From Psococerastis gibbosa (taxonomy: Eukaryota; Arthropoda; Insecta; Psocodea; Psocidae), in assembly GCA_963971405.1 (NCBI GenBank), contig OZ020487.1:9397344-9461343 (forward strand): 64,000 nucleotides of DNA, written 5' to 3'. The notes under the pieces were generated by a model that searched no databases, was not told the origin of the DNA, and saw only the letters and a list, made by a program, of their open reading frames with translations. Numbering within the stretch: the first letter of the stretch is position 1; the number at the start of each line of letters is the position of its first letter. Positions 5,874 through 64,000 of the stretch are shown here, one piece after another. The translations under genes and the position numbers were made by a program.

Positions 5874-7652
5874 CTTGAAAGTAATGAAGATATTGCAGGA
5901 AATTAGCTAATCCAGCTGGATTTCGTTCTAACCGTTATTTTATGTCTCTTCTTTTCTGTCTTGTATTATTCTTGTTAATTTTTCTCAGAAATTTATTATA
6001 ACGTAATTCAAATATGCAGCGATATATTGTATCGTAAGTATCACCTCATCGTCAAGGTTCTTGAAAGCAATGAAGCAGGAAATTAGCTAATCCAGCTGGA
6101 TTTAGTTTTAACCGCTATTTTATATCTCTTCTTTTCTGCCCTGTATTAATCTTCTTAATTTTTCTCGGAAATTTATTATAACGTAATTCAAATATGCTGC
6201 GATGTATATTGTATCGTATGTATCACCTCCTCTTCAAGGTTCTTGAAAGTAATGAAGCAGGAAATTAGCTAATCTAGCTGGATTTCGATCTAACCGCTAT
6301 TTTATATCTCTTCTTTTCTGCCTTGTATTATTCTTGTTAATTTTTCTCAGAAATTTATTATAACGTAATTCAAATATGCTGCGATATATTGTATCGTAAG
6401 TATCACCTCCTCTTCAAGGTTCTGGAATGTAATGAAGCAGGAAATTAGCTAATCTAGCTGGATTTCGATCTAACCGCTATTTCATATCTCTTCTTTTCTG
6501 CCTTGTATCATTCTTGTTAATTTTTCTCAGAAATTTATTATAACGTAATTCAAATATGCTGCGATATATTGTATCGTAAGTATCACCTCCTCTTCAAGGT
6601 TCTTGAAAGTAATGAAGCAGGAAATTAGCTAATCTAGCTGGATTTCGATCTAACCGCTATTTTATATCTCTTCTTTTCTGCCTTGTATTATTCTTGTTAA
6701 TTTTTCTCAGAAATTTATTATAACGTAATTCAAATATGCTGCGATATATTGTATCGTAAGTATCACCTCCTCTTCAAGGTTCTTGAAAGTAATGAAGCAG
6801 GAAATTAGCTAATCCAGCTGGATTTAGTTTTAACCGCTATTTTATATCTCTTCTTTTCTGCCTTGTATCATTCTTGTAATTTTTCTCAGAAATTTATTAT
6901 AACGTAATTCAAATATGCTGCGATATATTGTATCGTAAGTATCACCTCCTCTTCAAGGTTCTTGAAAGTAATGAAGCAGGAAATTAGCTAATCTAGCTGG
7001 ATTTCGATCTAACCGCTATTTTATATCTCTTCTTTTCTGCCTTGTATTATTCTTGTTAATTTTTCTCAGAAATTTATTATAACGTAATTCAAATATGCTG
7101 CGATATATTGTATCGTAAGTATCACCTCCTCTTCAAGGTTCTGGAATGTAATGAAGCAGGAAATTAGCTAATCTAGCTGGATTTCGATCTAACCGCTATT
7201 TTATATCTCTTCTTTTCTGCCTTGTATCATTCTTGTAATTTTTCTCAGAAATTTATTATAACGTAATTCAAATATGCTGCGATATATTGTATCGTAAGTA
7301 TCACCTCCTCTTCAAGGTTCTTGAAAGTAATGAAGCAGGAAATTAGCTAATCTAGCTGGATTTCGATCTAACCGCTATTTTATATCTCTTCTTTTCTGCC
7401 TTGTATTATTCTTGTTAATTTTTCTCAGAAATTTATTATAACGTAATTCAAATATGCTGCGATATATTGTATCGTAAGTATCACCTCCTCTTCAAGGTTC
7501 TTGAAAGTAATGAAGCAGGAAATTAGCTAATCTAGCTGGATTTCGTTCTAACCGCTATTTTATATCTCTTCTTTTCTGCCTTGTATTACTCTTCTTAATT
7601 TTTCTCAGAAATTTATTATAACGTAATTCAAATATGCTGCGATATATTCTAT
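5874..7652. repeat. Satellite array: ten copies of a ~180-bp unit
   Basis: Using the anchor CTTGAAAG (or CTGGAATG) the units start at 5874, 6060, 6242, 6422, 6602, 6782, 6961, 7141, 7320 and 7500, a spacing of 179-186 bp. Shared blocks include GAAATTAGCTAATC, CTCTTCTTTTCTGCC, TTATAACGTAATTCAAATAT and TATTGTATCGTAAGTATCAC. Units 2 and 6 share the variant GGATTTAGTTTTAACC, and units 4 and 8 share CTGGAATG. This indicates a four-unit higher-order period of about 720 bp. The last unit is truncated. Non-coding. Confidence 0.95.
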
Positions 7653-7810
7653 TGTAGTACAGCTTACGGTACGTTACGGTTACGGTATCTCACGGTTACG
7701 GGTATACTTAACGGTACGGTAGTAGCTTACTATTGTAACACCACCCGTCCAAACCTCTTATTACAGTTATTGTGTGAAATATTAAATATATGTATGTACC
7801 TATATACTAC
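7653..7810. other. Degenerate TTACGG-rich junction
   Basis: The satellite ends in a patch (about 7664-7730) of irregular TTACGG/TACGG repeats, then unique sequence leading into the transposase fragment. No gene. Confidence 0.5.
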
Positions 7811-9004: not shown

Positions 9005-10412
9005 ATCGTTTTTATCTCAAATTACCACCGCAATTAGGAGGCACCTTGCTGAATCTGTTTTAAAAGTATACGTCAAAAAAGAAAACAGAAACATTAGACC
9101 TGTGCAAAAACATCTGTTTTTCATAGATAAAAAATCCCTCATTTCTTTTTCCGATATATACGTAGTTCAGGAATTCCTGTAAAGCTGTAACATGAAGAAC
9201 TCAAATTCAAAATACAAATTATATACTATATGGATTGGTGGGGAACATGATCTCTTTTTCTCTCAAATAACTCAGGAGACACCGCAATTAGCTGGCAGCA
9301 ATAAATTGCTGATACTGTTTCAAAAGTCAGAAACGAAAACAGAAGTATTAAAAATTTGGCAAAAACAGTTTTTCATAGATAAAAATCCCTCATTTCTTTT
9401 TTACGATACATATGTAGTTCAGGATGTCCTGTAACATGTAGAACTCAAATTCAAAATACAATGTATACAATATATATATATATATACATATGGATTGGTG
9501 GGGAACATGATCTGTTTTTCTCTCAAATAACTTGGGAGACATCGCAATTAGGAGGCTTCTATAATTTGCTGATACTGTCTGTTCAAAAAGTCAAAGCAGA
9601 AAACAGAAATATTAAAAATTTGGCAGAAAAATCAGTTTTTCATAGAAAAAATCCCTCATTTCTTTTTCCTATATTTATACGTAGTTCAGGATGTCCTGTA
9701 ACATGTAGAACTCAAATTCAAAATACAAATTATGTGTATGGATTGGTGGGGAACATGATTTGTTTTTCTCTCAAATAACGCAGGAGGCACCGCAATTAGG
9801 AGGTATCTATAAGTTGCTGATACTTTTCCAAAAGTCAAAGTAGGAAACAGAAATATTAAAAATTTGATAGAAACATCAGTTTTTCAAAGATAAAAATCCC
9901 GCACTTCCTTTTCCGAAACATACGTAGTTCAGGAAGCCTTGTAACATGAAGAATGGTCGGGAACATGATCTATTTTTCTCTCAAATAACTTAGGAGACAC
10001 AGCAATTAGGAGGTATCTATAAGTTGCTGATACTGTTCCAAAAGTCAAAGTAGAAAACAGAAATATTTAAAATTCGGCAGGAACATCAGTTTTTTATAGA
10101 TAAAAATCCCTCACTTCCTTTTCCGATACATACGTAGTTAAGGAAGTCTTGTAACATGAAGAATTCAAGTAGAAATTATATATATATAGCCTATATGTGG
10201 ATTGGTGGGGAACATGATCTATTTTTCTCTCAAATAACTTAAGAGACACAACAATTATAGGAGGTACCTATCTATAAGTTGCTGATACTGTTCCAAAACT
10301 CAAAGTAGAAAACAGAAATATTGAAAATTTGGCAGAAACATCAGTTTTTCATAGATAAAAATCCCTCATTTCTTTTTCCGATTTATACGTAGTTCAGGAT
10401 GTCTTGTAACAT
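9005..10412. repeat. Degenerate tandem array, ~210-260-bp unit, about six copies
   Basis: The anchor GGGGAACATGAT recurs at about 9241, 9501, 9749, 9959 (as TCGGGAACATGATC) and 10208, spaced 210-260 bp. Each is followed by TTTTCTCTCAAATAAC, CGCAATTAGGAGG, GCTGATACTGTT, ATAGATAAAAATCCCTCA and a TACGTAGTTCAGGA block. A partial first unit begins near 9005. Short open frames inside are by-products of the repeat. Dinucleotide TA runs separate some units. Confidence 0.9.
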
Positions 10413-16285: not shown

Positions 16286-18370
16286 TCACTCAATGTCATC
16301 GTCAATATCGTCTTCAAAATCGTCCCCCACATCATCGACAACGGGTAGTCTATTTCTAGTCGCCATGGAAACTTCTATCTTTCTCTTAATCCACTTGATG
16401 TATTCAGACACTTTGGTGTAAACACCAGGATACTTCTCATCTCCACAGCCTATGCCCCAAGAAGTAACGCCATAGAGTTTAGGTCTTCCTTCGCCATCTT
16501 TGTCGTACTCGTAGCAAGCCAAAGGGCCCCCAGAGTCTCCCTTGCAAGTGTCTGCCCCACCTTCGTTATTAGCGCACACCATTCCAACTCCGATTGCTGC
16601 AAACCTGCTATTAAACCTTGTACAATCATCTTTTGAATTTATTCTTACATAAGCTGACCTTAGTAATGTTTCAGTAAATTTTAAAGCGTCCGCTTTTTTA
16701 CCCCAGCCAGAGATTAGACAGTCCTGTCCTGGACTAACTGATTCCTTGTAAGAAGGCAAACATATAGGAAAAATTGTGGAGCCAAACACAAATTCACTTT
16801 TAATGATAATAAGAGCAATATCATTCCTTTTAGTGTTTAAATTGTAATTTTTATGTAAATAGAGCTCAGAAATTTCATACTCATTCAACATTGTCAAGTC
16901 AGAGTGACCAGCGGTCAGTAAGCGATCATCTTTACTCACATTTACAGTATTGCCCGGTGCCTTATATAGAAAACAATGTGCAGCGGTAAGAACGTGCCAG
17001 TTTGAAATAATACTTCCTCCGCAAGTCAACTGCTTTGTATCTTTTCGAATCAACGCTACTTGCCACGGAGTTACTGCAATATCTGACTGCCAACCACTAG
17101 TAACATACGTATGTACATTCCCACTCCCATATCCTTTTACACATTTTTCAGGTAACAAACAATCTGCAGACGTGCAAGTATCAACCATGGAAGTATTAAT
17201 TTCCGTTGTATTGTTTGAGTGATTTATAATTTTTGATAATGGAGAAGGTGTGCCGAAGGCCGCTGGGGTTGGTATAAAGATATCTGCTTTGCTCTTTATG
17301 GGCGTTAGTTTGTAATAATGACTGTTAAGTTCAATCCATTTAATCATTTCATCTTTTAGAGCAGGTCGATACCCATTAAAAGAGAACTTATAGTTGGTAC
17401 CGTTTGCATTGTAATACCAGATATGAGTGACCCAGTACCCATTAATAGACACCGTTTGTGAATCAAATGATTTGCCTGATGCATTGTAGTCTTGAGGAAG
17501 ACCTGCAGATTGGTTGAGCTTTGAAGTAATATTGGGTACTGTTAAGGTGGAACCCTTTAAATCTACAAATATTTCAGTAGTTGTAGGGGCAGTACCAGTG
17601 GAAGTAGGAGTGGCAGTAGTAGTAGTAGTAGTGATGGCACCAGCATAAGCAGAAGTAGCATTAGTAGTAGATGTGGGTACTGTGGATGTACTGGTAATAG
17701 CAGTTGTAATGGTTGCGGTTTTTTTATTTTCTGCCCATTTGACGGGAACTAATTTGTAATGATGACTATTGCGTTCAAGCCATTCAACCATTTTTTCTCT
17801 TGGGGCAGGCAGATTGCCATATATAGAGAATCGGTAGTTAGTGCCGTTAGAATTATAATACCATAGAGTAGTTACGTTTCGCCCGTTTTTTACTGTCGTT
17901 TTCTCTTTGAAATATTTATGACTTATGCCATTACTATTAGTGGAATCGAGTTCTTGGATAGTTTGTGAATTCGGTGAGGAACGATAATTCACAAAAATTT
18001 GAGCTTCTTTAAACATGTTGCTCGTATATGTTTCTTCATGCTCTTCTTTTTTTGTTTTGTCTATTTTGTGTGCCGATCCCCATGATTTGCCATTTGTCTG
18101 ATTGTTTTCAATAATTTGTAGGGTACGTAGAAGTGGCTTCGGCTCTATTTCACACGGTGCATTACTACATGTTTCCCCGTCAAAAGTAGTATTTGACGGG
18201 CAATCCAATATTTCCCAAACACCCCCTAAACACTCTTGATAACGCGTACAGGACAGATGATCCTTTATCCGTTGCGTTGTGTTTCCACATAATTCACAAG
18301 ATTTTATAACTGCACAAAAAAATGTTAAAACGCGAAAATACCTGAACATTTTCGCGAGATCTAGAGTCAT
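16286..18370 (-). CDS. Secreted trypsin-like serine protease with chitin-binding domain and duplicated unknown module
   Basis: An uninterrupted 694-codon frame. The second Met (codon 8, base 18349) gives a compact signal peptide, FRYFRVLTFFCAVIKS, and is the likelier start. Residues 28-73 hold six cysteines spaced 12, 5, 9, 10 and 4, as in peritrophin-A/CBM14 chitin-binding domains. Two related ~95-residue modules follow (about 117-211 and 266-359; shared WYYN-NGTNY-FS, EM--W-E-NSH-YKL-P). A Thr/Ser-rich mucin-like linker (216-266) lies between them. The S1 domain spans about 423-663: His465 (TAAHC), Asp517 (NDIAL), Ser613 (GDSGGP). Asp607, six before the serine, with Gly639 and Gly649, predicts cutting after Arg/Lys. 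Cys410 may tie the pro-region to Cys537. The tail is acidic. The expected Arg-IVGG activation site is replaced by Tyr422-VTSG. No intron is seen, so it may be an old retrocopy. Likely extracellular, on a chitinous matrix or in hemolymph. Confidence 0.9.
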   Translation of the reverse strand: MTLDLAKMFRYFRVLTFFCAVIKSCELCGNTTQRIKDHLSCTRYQECLGGVWEILDCPSNTTFDGETCSNAPCEIEPKPLLRTLQIIENNQTNGKSWGSAHKIDKTKKEEHEETYTSNMFKEAQIFVNYRSSPNSQTIQELDSTNSNGISHKYFKEKTTVKNGRNVTTLWYYNSNGTNYRFSIYGNLPAPREKMVEWLERNSHHYKLVPVKWAENKKTATITTAITSTSTVPTSTTNATSAYAGAITTTTTTATPTSTGTAPTTTEIFVDLKGSTLTVPNITSKLNQSAGLPQDYNASGKSFDSQTVSINGYWVTHIWYYNANGTNYKFSFNGYRPALKDEMIKWIELNSHYYKLTPIKSKADIFIPTPAAFGTPSPLSKIINHSNNTTEINTSMVDTCTSADCLLPEKCVKGYGSGNVHTYVTSGWQSDIAVTPWQVALIRKDTKQLTCGGSIISNWHVLTAAHCFLYKAPGNTVNVSKDDRLLTAGHSDLTMLNEYEISELYLHKNYNLNTKRNDIALIIIKSEFVFGSTIFPICLPSYKESVSPGQDCLISGWGKKADALKFTETLLRSAYVRINSKDDCTRFNSRFAAIGVGMVCANNEGGADTCKGDSGGPLACYEYDKDGEGRPKLYGVTSWGIGCGDEKYPGVYTKVSEYIKWIKRKIEVSMATRNRLPVVDDVGDDFEDDIDDDIE

Positions 18371-18399
18371 AGGTTGTTCGCGATCAAATGTAGAGTGCG

Positions 18400-18834
18400 A
18401 ATACTACTGGGCGGCCTTCAGTCTGCAAGGTGTGACGATCTACTGTACAGGGTGTACCTACTCTGATGGATCATGCCTAACCTTACAAACCTGTTCTAAT
18501 ACAGATCCGCTTAAACTGAAAATGACCATTACCTGGACAATAATAGGTTGGTATTGTACTCTAGCAGAGCCCAATCGAGTTAACTCCAATCAAGTGGATT
18601 ATCCTCGATGGGGCAGATGATATAGTGGGTATGGATATCGTTCAAAGGGCTATCGCCATTTTATTAATTTAGTTTTATTTTATTGAAATGAAGAAGAATG
18701 TTTATCACTTCCACTAATGATTTATTTGATGAACTATTTCGGATATTATAAATGGCTGCATCTCCAGCTAACATCAAACTTTAAAAAATACTCCATATGT
18801 GTGGAGGGGGCGACTTTTCTTACAATTGCTAATT
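18400..18834. other. 5' flank of the protease gene
   Basis: No TATA box is obvious within 100 bases upstream of the protease start. On the minus strand, CACACCTTGCAG at about 18437-18426 could be a 3' splice site, which would allow an untranslated first exon farther right. No other gene is supported. Confidence 0.4.
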
Positions 18835-23410: not shown

Positions 23411-23671
23411 ATGCCTGGGAGCAATGCATTACCCCAGTGCTATAGCTGTGTGCGCGTGCGTATTTACAATCCTGTGCTATACAGCATGCGCGGCGACGCG
23501 GGATGGAATCGCAGGCGGCGTGCGACGTCGCACCGGCCTGCAGATTATGAACATTGGGAACCATACGTGGCGTCGACGCAGCGGCGCGACGACGCAAATT
23601 GTGCCGGCGACCGGCGGCCCCACTGTAGCCACCAAAAGCGATGTTATTCAGTATGTACGGCACGGACCTAA
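23411..23671 (+). other. Overlapping upstream ORF at the NMDAR2 start
   Basis: An ATG 13 bases before the predicted NMDAR2 start opens a different frame that stays open for 86 codons, deep into exon 1. Both ATGs have G at -3 and C at +4, so neither context is clearly better. If the transcript includes 23411, ribosomes must leak past it. The product is Arg/His-rich and looks like no protein, so a regulatory role is the only one proposed. Confidence 0.4.
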
Positions 23672-23856
23672 CCTCACGTTGGCTATTTTGCTGCCCCATA
23701 CGAATTTCGGTGTGCGCGAGTACTACAAGACGATCAATGACGCGGTGAAATCGCTGCATAAGGGACGACCTCAGCGGTTTTCATTTTTACAGAAGTATAA
23801 TTTTGGCACCGAGCATGCCAAGATGAAATTGATGACGCTTACGCCTAGTCCAACAG
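23424..23856 (+). CDS. Nmdar2: NMDA receptor GluN2-type subunit (NMDAR2), exon 1: signal peptide and start of amino-terminal domain
   Basis: GluN2 subunits pair with GluN1 to form glutamate-gated, voltage-dependent Ca2+ channels at synapses; the extracellular amino-terminal domain (ATD) has a bilobed periplasmic-binding fold and tunes gating. This exon gives 144 codons plus one base. Residues 1-23 (MHYPSAIAVCACVFTILCYT then ACA) are a signal peptide. NHT (46) and NLT (83) are glycosylation sequons. LTLAILLPHTNFGVREYY starts the first strand and helix of the ATD. The donor is ACAG then GTAGGT at 23857, phase 1, matching exon 2. Assignment rests on exons 2-5, which read in order as a GluN2 ATD. 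The exon is much richer in C+G and CpG than its flanks. An overlapping upstream ATG lies at 23411. Confidence 0.88.
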
Positions 23857-29725: not shown

Positions 29726-29846
29726 AAAAAGGGGAAAATCGTGGAAACGCGGAAATGGATTATTGACAATAATGGAAAACTTCGGCAGCGGAATTGTCAG
29801 CATTACCACTCGTCAGATTCAACTTGTTTGCATAATTTCAGCAAAT

Positions 29847-30655
29847 TTCCGGAACACAATTTTCTTTTGGAAAGATTTCTTTACTGATAGGATTGTGAAA
29901 GACATCAGTTGCCGCTGAGTGGTACTCTTGAATAAATATTTCGACTACGGTATCGGGAAAATGGGAAAATGTCTTGAAAGTGTTGGTGATGGTGCGATAT
30001 CCTATAAAGGAAAAAGTTTTTCCCTTTTCAAGGTTAAGATTGAAAAAATGGGCTGAGAGATTTGTTAATTTCTTGTTACTGTCATACGATTTTACAGCCA
30101 ACTTGATTGTTGAGGGATTTACCTATGTTTCCGGAGCACTATTTTCTTTTGGAAAGATTTCCTTACAGATAGTATTGTGAAAGACATCAGTTGATTAAAT
30201 ATTTCGGCTGCGGTAACGGGAAAATGTCTCGAAAGTGTTGGTGATGATGCGATATCCTATATAGGAATAACCTTTTTCACTTTTCAAGGTTAATATTGAA
30301 AGGAAATGGGTTGTGAAAAAATGCTAATTTATTATTATTGTCATATGATTATACAGCTAACTTCATTGGTGAGGGTTTTACCTTATATTTCCGGAACACA
30401 ATTTTCTTTTGGAAAGATTTCCTTACAGATAGCATTGTGAAAGACATCATCAGTTGCTGCTGAGTGGTACTCTTGAATAAATATTTTGGCTGCGGTACCG
30501 GGAAAGTGTCTTGAAAGTGATGATGCAAAATCCTATAATGGAATTTTTTTCTTTTTTCAAGTTTATTAAAACATGGGCTGTGAGAAAATGCTAAATTATT
30601 ATTATCATACTATAAGATTCTACAGTCAACTTCATTGCTGAGCGTTTTACCAATA
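29847..30655. repeat. Tandem array, ~260-282-bp unit, three copies
   Basis: The anchor TTCCGGAACACAATTTTCTT (variant GGAGCACTATT in copy 2) starts units at 29847, 30129 and 30389. Each continues with TTTGGAAAGATTTC, ATTGTGAAAGACATCA, CTTGAAAGTG and CTTTTCAAGGTTA. The short frames within are not conserved between units. Confidence 0.85.
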
Positions 30656-35517: not shown

Positions 35518-35696
35518 CGATTCTGAATTCCTTGTGCCAAGAGTTCCTTACGGTAAACGTGTCCGCCATCTTGTACCTTATGAACTACGAAAGTTACGGT
35601 AGAAGTACGGCTTCCGCTCAATATTTCCTTCAGCTTGCCGGGTACCTGGGGATACCTGTTATAGCGTGGAATGCAGACAACTCCGGGCTGGAGCGG
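35518..35696 (+). CDS. Nmdar2: NMDAR2 exon 2 (amino-terminal domain)
   Basis: Acceptor TTGTTGTTTCAG, donor GAGCGG then GTAAGT. Two bases complete a split Ala codon from exon 1, then 59 codons: [59 protein letters not shown]. This corresponds to the stretch in GluN2 ATDs between the first lobe core and the I-G-I--G (here [10 protein letters not shown]) strand. It ends in phase 0. Confidence 0.92.
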
Positions 35697-45208: not shown

Positions 45209-45396
45209 AGAGCGTCGGTGTCGAGCCTCCAGCTACAGCTAGCGCCCTCCCTGGAACATCAGATAGCCGCCATGTTGAGTATTCTAGAGAGGTACAAATG
45301 GCACAGTTTTTCGATAGTAACGAGCCAAATTGCCGGTCATGCGGACTTCATACAGGCTGTGAGAGAGAGAATCTCCGAGATGCAAGACAGATTTAA
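45209..45396 (+). CDS. Nmdar2: NMDAR2 exon 3 (amino-terminal domain)
   Basis: Acceptor TATTGTTTTTTGCAG, donor TTTAA then GTAAGT. Reads [62 protein letters not shown]. The PS-E-Q---ML-I---Y-W--FSIVT---G---F pattern is diagnostic for GluN2 ATDs (PSIEQQASVML in vertebrates). Phase 0 in and phase 2 out, both matching the neighbours. Confidence 0.95.
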
Positions 45397-54354: not shown

Positions 54355-54581
54355 GTTCCACTTACTTAACACGGTCCTGGTGACAGGAAAGGACAGTCTT
54401 CGTGAATTAGTCAGTAGTGAAAGCAGAGTAATGCTCCTTTACTCCACCAGAGACGAAGCCAGCCACATTTTATCTGCCGCCCGAGAGTATAAAATCACGG
54501 GGGAAAACTACGTCTGGGTTGTTACGCAGTCTGTCATTGGGGACTTAAACCCGCCACCTCAGTTTCCCGTCGGAATGTTGG
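54355..54581 (+). CDS. Nmdar2: NMDAR2 exon 4 (amino-terminal domain)
   Basis: Acceptor CTCTTTTTTTCAG, donor TTGG then GTGAGT. One base completes the split Lys codon from exon 3, then [75 protein letters not shown]. It parallels the GluN2 pattern ILLYCTKEEA-YIF--A---GLTG-GY-WIV-S-V-GD---P--FP-G. It ends in phase 1, as exon 5 requires. Confidence 0.96.
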
Positions 54582-55098
54582 GTGAGTTTCATTTGATTCC
54601 AAAGTTGTTTTGAAATTTTAATTTGATGAATAACCCCGGTGCTATATATCTGTCGCTTTCGTTTGCAGCGGTGTAGCTTTTTATATTCGCGGTGTTTTGC
54701 GTTGGATTGCTGATGACAGGAGGAGTTCTTCAGTGATATATTGTATTATCGAGCCGACGTCAAGCTGGCTTTATTGGCAAAAATCGCGGTTTTGCGGAAG
54801 TTTTCGATGTTTCGTGTGTTATCTCGCATTTCCATTCAAAGTTTACGAGCAGTATTGAAAAGTATAATGGGTTATATTGTACATAAAAATATATATTTTT
54901 AGGGGTAATAAATAAATAAATATATAATTATTTCGGTTAAATTATACAATCAAGTAATTAACAAGTAATTGACAAGAAAGTATAAAGTAAAATCGTCAAA
55001 ATATCGTCAAATCAGGTATTTGTAAATATATTTACGTTCCTGAAACCGCTGACTAGGCAATCACCGAGTCAGCAACCCAGGCCATGTACTGGGTACCA

Positions 55099-55804
55099 AA
55101 GGACCGTTCCGAGTTCACTCGAACATGATGCTTTCCAATTTATCAATTACTAGATAGATATTATGACTATTTTCATTGTGAATAATAATAATGGTAATGT
55201 ATTGAAGCGTGAATGTTCCACAACTTCTTCTAAAAATAATTTTTTTGCACAAAATGAAATCTTTTTTGAGAATGCAAACTGTTCAGTTTTGTTACTCTAT
55301 TTAACACCTACAACATACCTGAATGTAGAAATCATCGATAGAATGGTTCCGCAGAAAAAATATTGTTTAGTCATTTTTCATAAAAATTTAGTTATTTTTA
55401 TTTTTTTTACCCCTAGAATCGAACAATCAAGAGGCAAGTGACTCACCGCGTTTTGTTAACATTAATAACGACTACAACATATGTGAATTTAAAAGAAATC
55501 GTTGTAGCCATTTTTGAGAAGTAATTTTTTGGGGGTTTTTTGACAATAAAACCCCCAAAATTGAGTTAGCCCAAAATAATAAAAAATGGTCCCGAGGTAT
55601 AATTTTTTTAAACCTACCTACCAAATTTCATCAAAATCGACCGAGTAGTTTGCCCGGAAATCGATGAACAGACTGACAGACATTTCGTAAAAAAAAATTA
55701 TTTTGGGTTCCTGGGACCTCAAAACGTGTAAATCCGTTGAAATCTCGGAACCGAAAATTTTGACCATCACAAAGCTTTCCTTATACCACGTATAAATTGG
55801 AAAA
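55099..55804 (+). repeat. Dispersed repeat A, copy 6 (internal deletion)
   Basis: Both ends are present (CCGTTCCGAGTTCACTCGAA; TATAAATTGGAAAAC). The G-tract region is missing. It is the most diverged copy by eye. Confidence 0.8.
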
Positions 55805-56339
55805 CAAAAAAGGCAGTTGCTGAGCTGAGCGGTTCGAGAGGTAGGAGTTGGCAAATAATAATCTTTTTTTAAAAACGAGATTTTCACTATCGGGAACATT
55901 ACTATTTATGCAACATATATGCGGAAATTATATGTCTTTCTATATATGTACCTACCCATCTGTCTATCTATGGATATTTCCTATGAAAATCGATGTACAA
56001 TTGTACAAATGAATGCACAGGAGGGGGGGAGGAGGAGGGGGGGGGGTAGTACTACGATTTGCTCTCAACATCTCAGTGATTACAAAGGAGACGCCTAACG
56101 GGTAAGGGGGAGACATCGGAATACATACGTACATACTGCACTGTATTGATGGGGGTTTCTTGTGGTGAACAGTACCTATAATATTAGCATATCATGTTCT
56201 CTCATCAATATTAACATGCTGAGTGCTTCAATTATGTTTTGATTGCATTAAAGGTACGCTCTTAATAACAGTCAACCGCAGAGAATCCACGTGCATTTAG
56301 TATGTACTCGCGTTTCAAAATACGTCTCTACTTGTATAC

Positions 56340-56500
56340 AGACATGTAGAGTAGTGGTACAGACTCCGACTTTCACCCGAAAGGTTTTTGGTTTGAGTTC
56401 CACACTTGTTGAGTTGAGTTGAGCGTACCAGAGGGCTGTATATAGCCCTAACTCCGCTAGGTTGGCTTAGTAATAGAATAAAAAAAGTCAGTATTTATAG
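56340..56500 (+). mobile_element. SINE B, copy with internal deletion
   Basis: GACATGTAGAGTAGTGGTAC, CTTTCACCCGAAAGG, GGTTTGAGTTCC head, then CCTAACTCCGCTAGGTTGGC and TTAGTAATAGAATAAAAAAA. Confidence 0.8.
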
Positions 56501-56783
56501 GTATTATACGGTACATAGCGAGACTAACTTCTATTTTACTAGAATTTCCATGCATTGGTTCCCACTGTTCATTTCTAATAGACCATTTAAAGCACTGTTG
56601 ACAGCTCTGCACACAACATTAACGTACACGGGTCAAAAACGTTTTAAGTATTCCTCATACCAGTGACCAATTTGCTGGTAGGCCCAGTAGCGTAACGAGA
56701 CGGAAGCAGGAGCGGGGCCCCGGGCGCAAAATCACACAGCGCAAAATTGAGCATAAGAAAATAGTCAAATTTTATAACAACAA

Positions 56784-57541
56784 AGAACCGGTCCGAGTTT
56801 ACTCGAACATGCTTTCCAATTTATCAACATTAGTAGATAGAGAATATGAGTAATTTCATCGTAAATAATTTTCCAGTGGTTAAATTTCCGATATCTCGGG
56901 GGGGGGGGGGGCGGGTTGTGCAACTGACGTCACTGGAAGTGTGGTAAATTCTAGATAGGTCAAACCATCACATTAATTACAACACAGCAATAATGGCAGG
57001 GCACGCAATGCAATTGAGCGCGAATTTTCTATCATTTTTTCAAAAAATAATTTTTTGTACAGAACCAAATACTTTTCTGGAAAAGCAACCTGTCCGGTTT
57101 CGTTACTCAATTTAACACCTAAAACATACCTGAAGTTAGAAATCATCGATAGAAAGGTTTCACAGAAAAATTATTTTTTAGTCATTTTTCATTAAAATTT
57201 AGTTATTTTTATTTTTTTACCCCCAGAAGCAAATTTTTTTAGGCGTTTTTTAGGGGTTTTTTGAGAATTAAACCCCCCCCCCCCCAAATTGAGTTAGCCT
57301 CAAATAAAAAAAATGGTCCTGAGGTATGAGTTTTGTGAACCAACATGCCGAATTTCATCAAAATCGACCGAGTAGTTTGCCCGGAAATCGATTCACAGAA
57401 AGACAGACAGACAGACACTTTTTTGGGTTCCTGGGACCTGAAAACGTGTAAATCCGTTGAAATCTCGGAATCGAAAATTTCGACCATCACAAAGCTACTA
57501 CATACAAAGCTTACTAAGAATCTACGTATAAATTGGAAAGC
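56784..57541 (+). repeat. Dispersed repeat A, copy 7 (internal deletion)
   Basis: Both ends recognisable. The G tract at 56898-56911 is retained; the segment between AGAAGCAAA and the TTTTTTAGGCG block is lost, and a C run (57272-57286) is expanded. Confidence 0.85.
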
Positions 57542-57610
57542 AAAAATTAATTGCGTACAGTAGCCTATGCAATAGACTCAATTTTTCCTTCCTACACTTT
57601 TGGTCTAGCC

Positions 57611-58490
57611 CAGTGGTCGGCAACCTTATTGTACAAACGAGGCCAAATTACGGGTTTTTTGAACAAAAAAAATTTCACAGCAAATTGAGATTGCGCGGTA
57701 TGTTGGTGAGTTGTCTCTTGTGGTTTCCATGCAAGAAACAACAGAAATCACAATCTGTATGTTATGCAGGCACGATTAAAAGTACGCAACATAGTTCCTT
57801 CGTAAGCTATCTTGCGATCTATCAATATCTTGCTGAACCCTCTGGCATGGCTTGTGGACCCTTGAGTCCGCGGACCACCTTTTGGAAGCCACTGCTCAAA
57901 TGGATAAGGTGAACAATATAATATTCAGAAACTTGAAAAGTCTACTTCAAACCTAAACAGAATTCGGAATCCAACATTTTAAGTTGTGACTTTGCCGACC
58001 AGCCTGAGCATGACTTGAGGCAGTCAGCAGTACTTAGCCACAGATACTCGATCGACCATTTGGTCTCAGCTTCAGCTGTTCATTTTTCCAGTTTTTCCAA
58101 TTTAGCCACAGAATTCAGCATTTTGAGTTGTCTCTTGTGGTTTCCAAACAAAAAAACAACAGAAATCACAATCTGTGTGTCATGCAGTCACGATAAAAAA
58201 GTAAACAAGATAGTCCCTTCCTAAGCTATCTTGCTGTCTATCAAAATCTTGCTTTGGCATAGCTTGTGGGCCCCTGGGTCCGCAGACCACCTGTTGGAAA
58301 CCACGGCTGAAATGGATAATGTCAAGAATATATTCAGAAATTTGAGAAGTCTACTTCAAACCTAAACAGAATTCGGAATTCAACATTTTAAGTTGTGACT
58401 TTGCTGACCAGCCTGAGCATGACTTGAGGCAGTCAGCAGTATTTAGCCACAGATGCTCCATCGATCATTTTGTCTCAGTCTCAGCTGTTC
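57611..58490. repeat. Two-copy tandem duplication, 417-bp unit, in a possible hAT-like element
   Basis: GTTGTCTCTTGTGGTTTCCA begins units at 57710 and 58127. Shared blocks include AACAACAGAAATCACAATCT, AACCTAAACAGAATTCGGAA and CAGCCTGAGCATGACTTGAG. The start CAGTGGTCGGCAACCTT and the internal CGGACCACCTTTTGGAAGCC then ACTG resemble hAT-type ends, but no 8-bp target duplication is visible. Confidence 0.7.
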
Positions 58491-59155
58491 ACGGGGGGAA
58501 ACCACCCGTGAATTTCAGCTTTTCCAAATCTTTCCAACCATGAATTTTAGAAGACAGTACCATTGAATTGAATATTATTAATACAGAGGTTACCATTTTC
58601 AGATATTGGTAATGCTTTTTTCCCCCTGAATCTGATACTTTTCATATTAAGTATATTTTATTCAATGCGTAACTAATGAAAAATATAGTTTATAAATTTT
58701 GGCTGTGTGACTATTTATATGCATAGTCTTATATTGTCAAGTTCTGGCGCACCATATTATCAAAAAAACACACAGTTGTCGTTTTTCAATGCAAGAATTT
58801 ATGGAAAAGCCTATGCATTTTCAGTTGAGTTAAAAATTTTAGCCTCAATCATCTCGAATGTTTATTTTTGTCATCTGCACCCCATGGCCTCTAGGCACCT
58901 AAATTGATCTCACACAGTCAATTTGTGCATCGAACCTAGGGCAAATTTACAGCGCCAGGAGACTCAGCATAAACCTCGGCTGTTGTAGTGAAAATGTGTT
59001 ATTTAGGCAATAAATTAAATTACTATTTTCTCAGTTAATCTGCATCAGATTTTTGTAAAGCTATACAATATGATTTCTGTATTTTTTTTTCTGTTTAGTA
59101 TCTATTGGTAATAATGCGTTAACTCATTAGGGGGAATTAAAAGAGGAACCATTGT
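58491..59155. other. Interval with no recognised feature
   Basis: AT-rich unique sequence, no supported gene or repeat. Confidence 0.5.
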
Positions 59156-59372
59156 CAGGACATGTAGCGTAGTGGTACGGACTCTGACTTTCACCCGAAA
59201 GGTTGTTGGTTCGAGTCCCACACTGGCTAAATTTTCTGGCCATGCTTCGGAGGGCATGTAAAGCAGGCGGTCCCGGGCTTTCCTTGTTGAGTGTAAGAGA
59301 GGGCTTTTAGCCCTAACTCCGCTAGGTTGGCTTAGTAATAGAAACAATAAAAAGTCCTTATTTATTTATTTA
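59156..59372 (+). mobile_element. SINE B, full-length copy
   Basis: Head: GGACATGTAGCGTAGTGGTA, CTTTCACCCGAAAGG, GGTTCGAGTCCCACACTGGC. Body: CTGGCCATGCTTCGGAGGGC, AAGCAGGCGGTCCCGGGC, GAGTGTAAGAGAGGGC, CCTAACTCCGCTAGGTTGGC. Then AATAAAAAG and a TTTATTT tail. Best copy for a family consensus of about 215 bp. Confidence 0.85.
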
Positions 59373-59949
59373 ACCAAATGAAATTAAGGAGTAGTATTCG
59401 CAGCTTAATTGACTAACCCCCTAAGCTGACTTCTTGCCAAACATTTACTGTTTATAGATGAGCAGTAATCAACGGAAATAGCTGTGGGATTGAGCTTTGA
59501 ATAATTAATCGGGGAGGGGGGGGGGGGTGGTAATTACAGTACATTAGCTAGTCACCAATACTGGCACAAACACCGTTTTCTCATTAGCTTGCCAGCTTCC
59601 TTCCTGCTTCAGCAATCATTTGTTTTCTCTTGTTAATTTGAAACCAAATCGGATACCATTAACGCGATTTTTGTGCAAAGTCACGTTTTACAGGAAATAT
59701 CTACTTTAGAGCTTTTAAAAATGAAGCATCCCTTAGAAGAAATGCTCCCCTACATTTTGATATGATTATGATTTGTGGCCGTCACTAACAACGTGATTGC
59801 CACAATTATTGAATTTATTTTCTAAAAAACATTGGGTTGTCAATGTAAATGTTTTGCCCCAAAACTTTTGAAATCAACAATTATTATATATTGAAGTCTT
59901 GGCATATATTGTATAACACTGATATTAAATTAATTGTTCATTAAATTTT

Positions 59950-60075
59950 TTTGGTTGATAACCAAAATTAAAGGATATAAAAAAACTGGACTTGGGATTC
60001 GAACTCACGATCTACGCCTATCCGGGACGTCGCCTTAACTGCTGGACCACACGCCCCGACAAGTGCAAATGCTTT
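59950..60075 (-). mobile_element. SINE A, reverse copy
   Basis: Minus strand: CGGGGCGTGTGGTCCAGCAG, GACGTCCCGGATAGGCGTAG, GTGAGTTCGAATCCC, with the TTAATTTTGGTTATCAACCA body. Ends at a C/G-rich CACTTGTCGGGGCG edge. Confidence 0.78.
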
Positions 60076-60362
60076 AAATCCTCTACTCAATTAGAACATA
60101 TAAGTAGAGAAATTCGAGGGAATGCACTTAATAATAAATATATAATAAATAATCTATTTATTTCCTTAATCCATACATAACAAATAATACTACAATAGTA
60201 GTAGTAGTAGTACACAGCTTATAGTATATGAGAGAGTACAGAGGAAGGTGGGGACCCTGTAGATAAATCTGTGATGGGGCCCCTGTTTAATACTGTTTCA
60301 TACATGGTGCGAATAATGCTAGTTTTTATTTAATCGTTTATCTACAGTACTGCATGTAATAA

Positions 60363-60746
60363 GGTGCCCATTCCATTGACCGGCTAGGGCTATTTCCAAC
60401 AACGGTGACGTGGTAGCAGACATTCAAGACTTAGGTGGCGTTTCCACCGACCTCGGATTGCAGAATTGACGGAAATGTTTATTTTCCTCTATGCCATAGT
60501 TAAAATTTATCAATGATCATACAGTAAAATCACAAACAAATAAACTAATATTAGAAAATGGCGTCATGGGATATGTTAAGTACAAACATTTTAATAGATT
60601 TCTATAAAAAGAAAAATTCTAATTTCCGTCAATGTCATTTGCATTCTGCAATGCGAGGTCGGTGGAAACGCCACCTAAGTCTTGAATGTCTGCTACCACG
60701 TCACCGTTGTTGGAAATAGCCCTAGCCGGTCAATGGAATGGGCGCC
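60363..60746. mobile_element. PIF/Harbinger-like MITE with ~110-bp inverted ends
   Basis: Begins GGTGCCCATTCCATTGACCG and ends CGGTCAATGGAATGGGCGCC. The arms share AGACTTAGGTGGCGTTTCCA and its inverse. TAA flanks both sides. Same family as 19734-20110, interior in the opposite direction (ATGGCGTCATGGGATATGTT here). Confidence 0.85.
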
Positions 60747-60899
60747 TAAAGTGAAATAACATAAAATAACATAAACGGACTACAGTTAACAAAAAATATA
60801 AATAACAAAACCTATTGTACGCTAATGATTTTATGTTCTTAGCATACTGGTTAAGATGGTGTTTAATGAGAAGATGGCGAAATTTTTAGTGACAAAATT

Positions 60900-60950
60900 A
60901 CTTGTCGGGGCTTGTGGTCAAGCTGTTAATCAACAATGCCCCTCAATGCG
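60900..60950 (+). mobile_element. SINE A, short head fragment
   Basis: ACTTGTCGGGGCTTGTGGTC then AAGCTGTTAATCAACAATGC matches only the A-box half of the SINE A head. Confidence 0.45.
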
Positions 60951-61073
60951 GTTCTGTAGGGACAGTTTTGGTCACTAGGTTCGCTGACGACAAACCGATA
61001 TCCATATTATTCAAAATGGCCACCGTTTGCATGTGAAAACTAAGCTCTTAGCATCTAATTAATTCTTTTAAGC

Positions 61074-61455
61074 CTGAGTGTTCAAAATGTTTTGTAAACA
61101 AGAAATTATCGTAATTTTTGGACGAAATTAATTAATTGCTCGTTCCACAGCCACAAAGATATAAAAGGGAACAGATGAAAAAATCTTAAAAAATACGAGC
61201 TTTCTGTGAAAGCTGTCTATTTCCCTTACAGATATTTACAACTGTGCTACAAAATGGGTTTAAGGCTCTATATCCATTTTTTTAAGGTAATGATATTTCA
61301 GTTCAGAAAATATGAACTTCCTGCGATAACTTGAATTTTTTATGGGTTTTTTATCTGTTCACTTTGTTACCTTTGTATCTGTGGAATGAGCAATAAATTA
61401 TTTTCGTCAAAAAATCAGCAAAATTTCTTGTTTACAAAACATTTTGAACACTCAG
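61074..61455. mobile_element. Foldback element with ~110-bp arms
   Basis: GAGTGTTCAAAATGTTTTGT and AAACAAGAAATT at the left are mirrored exactly by AATTTCTTGTTTACAAAACA and TTTTGAACACTC at the right. Farther in, TTGCTCGTTCCACAGCCACA pairs with TGTATCTGTGGAATGAGCAA. Non-coding. Confidence 0.8.
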
Positions 61456-62486
61456 CCTTTATATTTTTATAATATTTTTACTATGCCTGGACCTTATTTC
61501 GCTGCATATAATTTAATACATTTATTCTCCATGATTTATAGAAAAATATCACTTTAAAATAATAAGTAATTAAAAATCATTTTAAAATAGTATTGAGGCT
61601 TATGGAAAAATCAACGCTTTGATATCATTGCAACTGGTACTGCCATCTACAAAATGACGTCACAAATGAACCTCATTAGATACTAGGGGTACTTTTACCG
61701 ATTTTTATTAGAACTTCGCGGTAGAAACATTTGCCGACAATTGGCTGCTATCGGCACGTTTGAGCTAGAGTCCAAGAATACGTGTGGGATAGATAAATAT
61801 TTAATCACACACATCCCTACGTGTCTAACACGTAACGCCTTTACAACTTTACTAGAGCGTGTTAACCACTTTCTCTCTCTTTCCTTCATTTTTAACTTTC
61901 TTTGCCCCTGGCCGTATAGTGTTTTGCTAGAATAACTGGCGAGATTAGGGTCAATACAAATCAACTATACAATAAGAGTGTACTTCCCATAAGTAATAGG
62001 TACCCCCAAATCCTTTGTGTTTACTAAATTATAATTTAATTAACAAAGTAAGATATTAAAGATTTGGCTCATTTAAGGTGTAAAAAACAACTTCATTCAC
62101 CATACAATGGGGTACCGTAGATTTTTCATAAAAAATATTGAGGGCTAAAATCTCACGTAAAACAGATACCCTGAAAAAATTAAAAAAAAAAAAAATTAAT
62201 AATGCATTTTAATAACTTGCTCTGATAATTAAATAAAAAATAAGAAGTATTAAATTTCGGGCAGCCGATTTCCTTAGGGACGTAGCCTACACTCTTAAGA
62301 CTAACTGACTCTGACACCTCCCATGACACCAAACAGCGATGAATAAGGTTAAAAAAGGATGTCTGGCATGAGAGCGCTTATATCATTCGCCCTCTTTGTG
62401 TACCTATACATAAAAAATTTCTAACGTGAAAAAAGTAAGTGATTAAGTGCCTACGCACGGTTTATAACACTTGGTAAACGTATAGC

Positions 62487-62676
62487 GACTTCGGTGGCAA
62501 TGTGGTAGCGTGCTTGTACTTGTACGAGTATCTACTCACCTTGCGGTCGGAGACGTGTCGTAACTCGACACAAGTACCTATTAGGTGACCAAGTGAGGCG
62601 ACTGAAGAGGTTAATCGGATACATTCATTAAATTGTTTGTATGCGATTTAATCTTTTCTATTAAAAAAAAAAAAAA
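62487..62676 (+). mobile_element. SINE C, copy 3, next to the exon 5 array
   Basis: GCGACTTCGGTGGCAATGTG, GTGGTAGCGTGCTTGTAC, GTCGGAGACGTGTCG, GAGGCGACTGAAGAGGTTAA, ATCGGATACATTCATTAAAT, then GTTTGTATGCGATTTAATCT and a 14-base poly(A) at 62663-62676. The poly(A) stops 20 bases before the acceptor AG of the first partial exon 5 copy. Confidence 0.72.
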
Positions 62677-62697
62677 TGTATATTTTATCCATTACAG

Positions 62698-63717
62698 GTG
62701 CCCATCCCATTTCGATACGTCCAGCCAGGCGTTGGTGAACGAAGTATACACCGCCGTCAAGGTTAATGCTTACGGTGTAGAAGACTTCGTGAACGGCCTT
62801 TATAAATATGTCATATGTACTTATGTATATATTTTCTTCCATTACAGGTGTCCATTTCGATACGTCCAGTCAGGCATTGGTGAACGAAGTATACACCGCC
62901 GTCAAGGTTAATGCTTACGGTGTAGAAGACTTCGTGAACGGCCTTTATAAATATTTCATATGTACTTATGTATATATTTTCTTCCATTACAGGTTTCCAT
63001 TTCGATACGTCCAGTCAGGCGTTGGTGAACGAAGTATACACCGCCGTCAAGATTAATGCTTACGGTGTAGAAGACTTCGTGAACGGCCTTTATAAATATT
63101 TCATATGTACTTATGTATATATTTTCTTCCATTACAGGTTTCCATTTCGATACGTCCAGTCAGGCGTTGGTGAACGAAGTATACACCGCCGTCAAGATTA
63201 ATGCTTACGGTGTAGAAGACTTCGTGAACGGCCTTTATAAATATTTCATATGTACTTATGTATATATTTTCTTCCATTACAGGTGTCCATTTCGATACGT
63301 CCAGTCAGGCGTTGGTGAACGAAGTATACACCGCCGTCAAGGTTAATGCTTACGGTGTAGAAGACTGCGTGAACGGCCTTTATAAATATTTCACATGTAC
63401 TTATGTATATATTTTCTTCCATTACAGGTTTCCATTTCGATACGTCCAGTCAGGCGTTGGTGAACGAAGTATACACCGCCGTCAAGGTTAATGCTTACGG
63501 TGTAGAAGACTTCGTGAACGGCCTTTATAAATATTTCATATGTACTTATGTATATATTTTCTTCCATTACAGGTGTCCATTTCGATACGTCCAGTCAGGC
63601 GTTGGTGAACGAAGTATACACCGCCGTCAAGGTTAATGCTTACGGTGTAGAAGACTGCGTGAACGGCCTTTATAAATATTTCACATGTACTTATGTATAT
63701 ATTTTCTTCCATTACAG
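62698..63717 (+). repeat. Tandem array of seven partial NMDAR2 exon 5 copies with their 3' splice sites
   Basis: Copies start right after CTTCCATTACAG (copy 1: TATCCATTACAG) at 62698, 62848, 62993, 63138, 63283, 63428 and 63573. The spacing is 145 bp, but copy 1 is 150 because of five extra bases near its start. A unit is 93 bp of exon ([20 protein letters not shown] to the first base of the codon after VN) plus 52 bp of intron tail with branch-like and pyrimidine tract sequence. The second half of the exon and its donor are absent. The unit length is not a multiple of three, so reading on from any copy hits a stop in the next (the TAA inside AAGGTTAATG or AAGATTAATG, read in the shifted frame). 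Copy 1 is also out of frame with exon 4. Copies 5 and 7 are identical, as are 3 and 4. Confidence 0.95.
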
Positions 63718-63901
63718 GTGTCCATTTCGATACGTCTAGTCAGGCGTTAGTGAACGAAGTATACACCGCAGTCAAGGTTTATGCTTATGGTGTAGAAGAC
63801 TTCGTCAACGACCCCCGTAATGCTAACCTCAGCCTAAATACTCAGCTGGCATGTGAAAGAGTTGGCGAATCTCGGTGGAATACGGGTGATAGATTTTACA
63901 A
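63718..63901 (+). CDS. Nmdar2: NMDAR2 exon 5 (amino-terminal domain), the complete copy
   Basis: Acceptor TTTTCTTCCATTACAG, donor TTTTACAA then GTAAGT. Two bases complete the split Gly codon from exon 4, then [60 protein letters not shown]. It follows FP-GML as in other GluN2 ATDs (where SVSYD--DY is equivalent to GVHFDTSS). It ends in phase 2 and the gene continues past the window. This is the only one of eight copies with a second half and donor. NLS is a glycosylation sequon. Confidence 0.93.
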
Positions 63902-64000
63902 GTAAGTTAAGCATATTTCCACAATAAAATTTGTCCTGAACGTGTTAAATTCACTACTTCCACAAAAATCGAATTAGAAGACAATATTTTAATTGAAGAA
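63902..64000 (+). other. Start of NMDAR2 intron 5
   Basis: Begins GTAAGTTAAG; AT-rich, cut by the window edge. Confidence 0.8.

Follow-up and report, generated by a model that had tools for sequence, protein, structure and literature searches.

Seven tandem partial copies carrying a 3′ splice site precede exon 5 of an NMDA-receptor-2-type gene in Psococerastis gibbosa

Our analysis shows that exon 5 of an NMDA-receptor-2-type gene is directly preceded, on its 5′ side, by seven decoy units arranged head-to-tail, each made up of the first part of the exon (93 nt in the regular unit) and, behind it, 52 nt of intron tail whose last bases form the following acceptor. Since the unit holds a branch region, a pyrimidine tract, an AG and 93 exonic nucleotides, a seemingly functional 3′ splice site has been multiplied without the donor of the exon. 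We regard this structure as probably a minisatellite-type array lying across the boundary of intron 4 and exon 5, which grew and was homogenised by unequal exchange or slippage and which is mostly passive in splicing. Throughout, the window means the whole 64,000-nt stretch of DNA that was analysed, and positions are counted from its first letter.

Results

The host gene was modelled as five exons on the plus strand, which together encode 403 residues free of stops. The first coding exon was placed at 23424..23856, with a start codon of our choosing, and exon 2 at 35518..35696, with ends set by inspection. Exon 3 (45209..45396) shares 45% identity (E 5e-12) with a stretch of GluN2B, and its ends were set at the one AG/GT pair, among the pairs tried, that leaves an open frame. 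Exon 4 (54355..54581) shares 35% identity (E 2.6e-9) with a GluN2B stretch, and its final base is the first base of a Gly codon that is completed by exon 5. Intron 4 measures about 9.1 kb (54581 to 63718), and exon 6 onward lies outside the window. The joint peptide of exons 4 and 5 matches Pfam ANF_receptor (E 4.2e-9), and GluN2B heads the best 60 of its 141 matches among PDB sequences (E 2.5e-11). This homology to the amino-terminal domain places the gene with the GluN2 type and supports the assignment to NMDAR2 made in an earlier note on this DNA. The peptides of exon 1 and exon 2, each searched alone, gave no Pfam match. Elsewhere in the window, the minus strand at 16289-18403 holds a 705-residue open frame, the last third of which contains a Trypsin domain (Pfam E 2e-52).

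The array was recovered by two routes. Tandem Repeats Finder reported a 145-nt array at 62707-63810 (7.6 copies, 97% matches, score 2082), and a separate repeat search of the window returned the same spacing of 145 nt. Occurrences of the acceptor motif CCATTACAG have their last base at 62697, 62847, 62992, 63137, 63282, 63427, 63572 and 63717, which gives one interval of 150 nt followed by six of 145 nt; these positions bear out the earlier claim of seven tandem partial copies before exon 5. Searched against the window, one unit gave E-values between 6e-71 and 2e-80 for the other decoy copies and 6e-31 for the true exon 5, whereas elsewhere in these 64 kb it gave 12-13-mers only. The array is thus not due to chance. 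Near-identical head-to-tail units and the presence in them of the adjoining exon's splice site are two traits of a splice-site-bearing tandem repeat, and both are present here. By contrast, no decoy copy comprises a whole exon with both acceptor and donor, as the copies of a tandem exon array would. Within the window, the 91 nt that close exon 5 matched only themselves, tblastn with the second half of the exon found no other match below E 1.8 there, and a search of the rest of the window for a diverged second exon 5 yielded none (next best E 7.6). The layout of an acceptor plus half an exon is therefore supported, as the window contains the second half and the donor only once.

Copy 1 (62698..62847, 150 nt) has an exon-half of 98 nt, in which a net insertion of 5 nt breaks the frame, and its 52-nt tail ends in the acceptor of copy 2. 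Upstream of it, a partial intron tail with an acceptor (62675..62697) was placed by alignment of the left edge. Copy 2 (62848..62992, 145 nt) is regular, with its exon-half at 62848-62940 and its tail and next acceptor at 62941-62992. Copies 3 (62993..63137) and 4 (63138..63282), each of 145 nt, have the same sequence, as do copies 5 (63283..63427) and 7 (63573..63717), also of 145 nt. Copy 6 (63428..63572) has the same length, and the block of copies 6-7 differs from the block of copies 4-5 at one of 290 nt. The tail of copy 7 holds the acceptor of the true exon. The complete exon 5 follows as the eighth copy (63718..63901, 184 nt); the repeat takes in its first 93 nt and leaves out its last 91 nt. 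The 52-nt tail, which the earlier note had described as repeated seven times together with the exon-half, is indeed present seven times, before copies 2-8, but only about 25 nt before copy 1 resemble it. A run of 14 A (62663-62676) adjoins this left edge and may be the trace of an old insertion or slippage by which the tail of copy 1 was replaced. The partial tail, the units and exon 5 all lie on the plus strand.

Splice sites were scored with approximate donor and acceptor matrices, which were not trained on this DNA, so that the ranks given here are rough and the order among tied identical acceptors is arbitrary. The acceptors of copies 2-8 tie at ranks 10-16 of the 3489 AGs on the plus strand, and that of copy 1 ranks 78th. 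The earlier note had described the acceptors from copy 2 onward as the same over about 20 bases; the identity holds and extends to 33 nt (-33 to -1). The closest upstream AG to the acceptors of copies 2-8 is 64 nt away, leaving a clean branch-to-AG interval. The true donor of exon 5, GTAAGT (63902..63907, plus strand), scores 8.62 (rank 23 of 3485 GTs on the plus strand of the window) and is both the best and the sole strong donor in 62600-63990. The five true donors of the gene score 6.29-11.06. As all eight copies start with GT and are preceded by AG, the unit boundaries double as weak donor-like CAG|GT sequences. These boundaries are the runners-up in the region, with scores of 5.5-5.7 at copies 1, 2, 5, 7 and 8, and fall to 0.89 at copies 3, 4 and 6. 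The observation that the decoys do not carry the exon's own donor is upheld, since GTAAGT is absent from them, even though their boundaries do read CAG|GT. The seven upstream acceptors sit 329-1204 nt from the first strong donor at 63902. We also considered RNA structure as a means of sequestering or selecting acceptors. Folding of copy 7 together with exon 5 (63573-63901) was ordinary, with a z of -0.19 and 37 of 100 shuffles equal to it, and this candidate was set aside for lack of a fold signal over that segment.

Joining any of the seven decoy acceptors to the donor at 63902 leads into a stop, 162-1163 nt before that donor. The reading frames obtained in this way leave 355, 397 or 411 residues, and none of the seven combinations gives an in-frame product. 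A premature stop on use, one trait of a poison exon, was found for every decoy, and the same stops rule out in-frame exons made of several units. Since every decoy gives an early stop, mRNA decay is likelier than a stable short protein, and degradation of decoy-spliced mRNA is to be expected. This goes against the proposal in the earlier note that decoy use would give a truncated amino-terminal domain.

The pattern of differences among the copies carries signs of how the repeat evolved. Any two of copies 2-7 are separated by 0-4 differences over 145 positions, and the interior copies lie 1-2 of 145 away from their consensus. The true exon differs from the decoy consensus at 6 of 93 positions, and the left edge is misaligned and carries indels. 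A uniform interior with divergent edges is what unequal exchange leaves. Uniformity is equal throughout the unit and extends to the 52-nt tail, which is of no use to an exon: two of 52 sites vary in the tails of copies 2-8 and four of 93 in the exonic part of copies 2-7. The tail immediately 5′ of the true exon departs from the consensus at one of 52 positions, from which it appears that homogenisation extended up to the true acceptor and that this is why the true and the decoy acceptors are the same. Besides this array, the window holds three others, whose periods range from 180 to 465 nt. They are an array at 5895-7656, upstream of the receptor gene (about 9.8 copies of 180 nt, or 4.9 of 359 nt, with 96% matches); a compound tandem array at 9076-10412 with nested periods of 210, 255, 260 and 465 nt; and, inside intron 1 of the receptor gene, about two copies of a 260-nt unit at 29963-30449, flanked by incomplete copies at 29845-29911 and 30478-30651. 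All four arrays amount to 4690 bases (7.3% of the window). Long-period tandem growth is therefore common here, and the array at exon 5 is one of several.

The middle 28 nt of the tail are common to all seven tails (62796-63717; 5′ of copies 2-8). A source for them was sought beside copy 1, in exon 5 and intron 5, and among other intron tails, and none was recognisable, the scores being equalled by 1250, 1274 and 661 of 2000 random windows, respectively. We accordingly rejected both a linker derived from neighbouring sequence and the idea that the decoys are whole exon copies shorn of their second half by deletion, so that our account of the first duplication is incomplete. A pattern search for relatives in prokaryote and virus contigs returned 72 and 4 matches, respectively, none of which was confirmed, and the exact DNA pattern had no match in viral contigs; as these collections cover prokaryotes and viruses, the result bears little on animals.

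Evidence of selection on the decoys was looked for in the same differences, and we found no clear sign of it. Six sites vary (four exonic in copies 2-7 and two in the tails of copies 2-8), and all of them avoid the 33-nt acceptor zone; the probability of this is P = 0.21. The invariance of that zone is hence explained by the general uniformity of the array, and selection is not needed, although it could also yield invariant acceptors in copies 2-8. Among decoys 2-7, three of the four variable exonic sites alter the amino acid (V/F, V/I and F/C), as expected where coding constraint is absent. These two results speak against the suggestion that a switch for receptor dose has been selected for, while leaving room for a receptor-dosage switch as such. 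Comparison of the decoy consensus with the true exon gave a different picture, as five of the six differences affect the third base of a codon, where one third would be expected (P 0.018). This excess hints that some of the divergence built up under coding constraint. By our own estimate, however, a drifting decoy compared with a constrained exon would show about one half of its differences at third positions, so that five of six is a weak signal, with which it would be compatible that the founder copy was coding at first.

Discussion

Based on these observations, we propose that a stretch spanning the intron 4/exon 5 boundary of the receptor gene was duplicated, and that the resulting array was enlarged and kept uniform via unequal exchange or replication slippage. 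Exon definition is an established principle of splice-site choice. If it operates here, the donor at 63902 would be joined to the nearest acceptor, at 63718, to give the normal 184-nt exon, and pairings that yield exons of 329-1204 nt would be disfavoured. Occasional use of an upstream acceptor would produce an early-stop mRNA that is degraded, and the array would then amount to at most a small, copy-number-dependent leak in receptor expression. That exon definition could account for tolerance of the array had been suggested before; the combination of equal acceptors with a sole strong donor argues for this explanation. We consider it most likely that the array is tolerated, with slight leakage to decay.

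Several other readings of the array were weighed against this one. The decoys might be used deliberately in some cells or stages, giving early stops and decay, with copy number and splicing factors setting the dose of receptor. Seven acceptors look intact, six of them score as the true one does, and every decoy leads to a stop well 5′ of the donor. There is also a precedent in the human ABCA7 VNTR, a splice-site-bearing repeat that can alter splicing (PMC5954066). Such regulated use nevertheless seems unlikely to us, because the invariance of the acceptor zone (P = 0.21) gives no sign of selection, the uniformity spans the entire unit, and a strong donor is missing from the decoys themselves. 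We give an equally low standing to the more specific proposal that the ladder is tuned by copy number, in which seven acceptors that match or nearly match the true one compete for one donor. If it were true, copy number would set the share of transcripts lost to early stops and decay, and would provide a heritable and expandable control of NMDA receptor dose. A comparably small chance attaches to an artefact of assembly, in which the genome holds one copy or some other number and the assembler multiplied the unit. The units are short and 97-100% alike, and the copy number of such arrays is easily misassembled. Against this, the copies carry distinct, patterned variants and the two at the edges diverge more than those inside the array, neither of which would result from simple duplication of reads. 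The assembler could still have dropped or added an exact number of whole units.

Two further readings turn on the CAG|GT boundaries. Each 145-nt unit, from an acceptor to the next CAG|GT, could replace exon 5 in the manner of a mutually exclusive exon. Division by 3 leaves a remainder of 1 for 145 as for 184, so that exon phase would be kept, six of the seven units (copies 2-7) are open in frame and end in a hydrophobic tail, and the boundaries at copies 1, 2, 5, 7 and 8 score 5.5-5.7, as compared with 6.29 for the weakest true donor. However, the boundaries at copies 3, 4 and 6 score only 0.89. Open tails are also frequent by chance, being found in 0.39 of random 17-codon stretches and in 0.42, 0.50 and 0.67 of 115 pyrimidine-rich tails in the three frames. 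In addition, intron-derived sequence would have to stand in for half of the exon, the second half of which has no second copy in the window. We hold this cassette reading to be very improbable. Least probable of all, in our judgement, is a ladder for recursive splicing, in which each AG|GT serves as an acceptor and then as a regenerated donor, and decoys joined by mistake are removed stepwise. The AG|GT juxtaposition that characterises a ratchet point is present at all eight copies, and intron 4 is long, at about 9.1 kb. The regenerated donors are nonetheless far from strong, scoring 1.56-1.75 at copies 1, 2, 5, 7 and 8 and -3.05 at copies 3, 4 and 6, as compared with 6.29-11.06 for the true donors. 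Taken together, these comparisons lead us to retain a largely passive minisatellite-type array as the preferred explanation.

How one of several identical, competing acceptors is chosen is a question for which artificial minigenes are the usual tool. The array described here is a natural counterpart, with acceptors 2-8 identical over 33 nt, set at a spacing of 145 nt and facing one strong donor. Because the acceptors are identical, equally spaced and followed by a shared exon half, distance to the donor is nearly the sole variable. It is as a natural experiment in acceptor competition, placed within a receptor gene, that the array is worth following. If its copy number differs among individuals, it would show how a repeat at a coding boundary can grow while the gene survives, and also whether such a repeat tunes receptor expression. 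An array without leak would be clean evidence for exon definition, and one with leak would supply a series of dosage alleles.

The closest precedent is the VNTR in intron 18 of human ABCA7 (PMC5954066). That repeat is reported to consist of a 25-bp intronic unit present in 12 to about 427 copies, the first two bases of which form the donor of exon 18. Use of a repeated donor retains one unit, shifts the frame and leads to decay, and accounts for about 2% of isoforms. In both cases a repeat abuts an exon and its unit carries the splice site of that exon. In ABCA7 the repeated element is a donor, whereas here it is an acceptor together with a coding half-exon; the unit measures 145 nt and has seven extra copies. 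The minisatellite of the interferon-induced gene 6-16 (IFI6), with multiple splice donors (Turri et al. 1995, NAR 23:1854), is similar, to judge by its title, in that a single transcript receives a splice site several times over from a minisatellite. It too multiplies donors, unlike the array studied here, which multiplies acceptors.

Other systems resemble the array in single features. Mutually exclusive tandem exons (PMC9741552) are likewise head-to-tail exon copies within one ion-channel gene. Those exons are whole, with both splice sites and in-frame products, whereas the decoys lack the second half and the donor. The decoy exons reported to cause intron retention (PMC9723627, PMC8706089) also involve noncoding intronic sites that could engage splicing unproductively. 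They are cryptic exons for which nonproductive pairing with the intron's own sites has been proposed; here, the decoys are acceptors without a strong donor. The AG|GT juxtaposition marks the ratchet points of recursive splicing (PMC8605326), and in both settings it lies within a long intron, but the donor half is weak in the present array. Among the open-access papers listed, judged by title, none concerned an array of acceptors with half-exons, which is not proof that one is absent from print. In relation to the known systems, the array at exon 5 is the acceptor-side version of a splice-site-bearing repeat, and one that also copies coding sequence.
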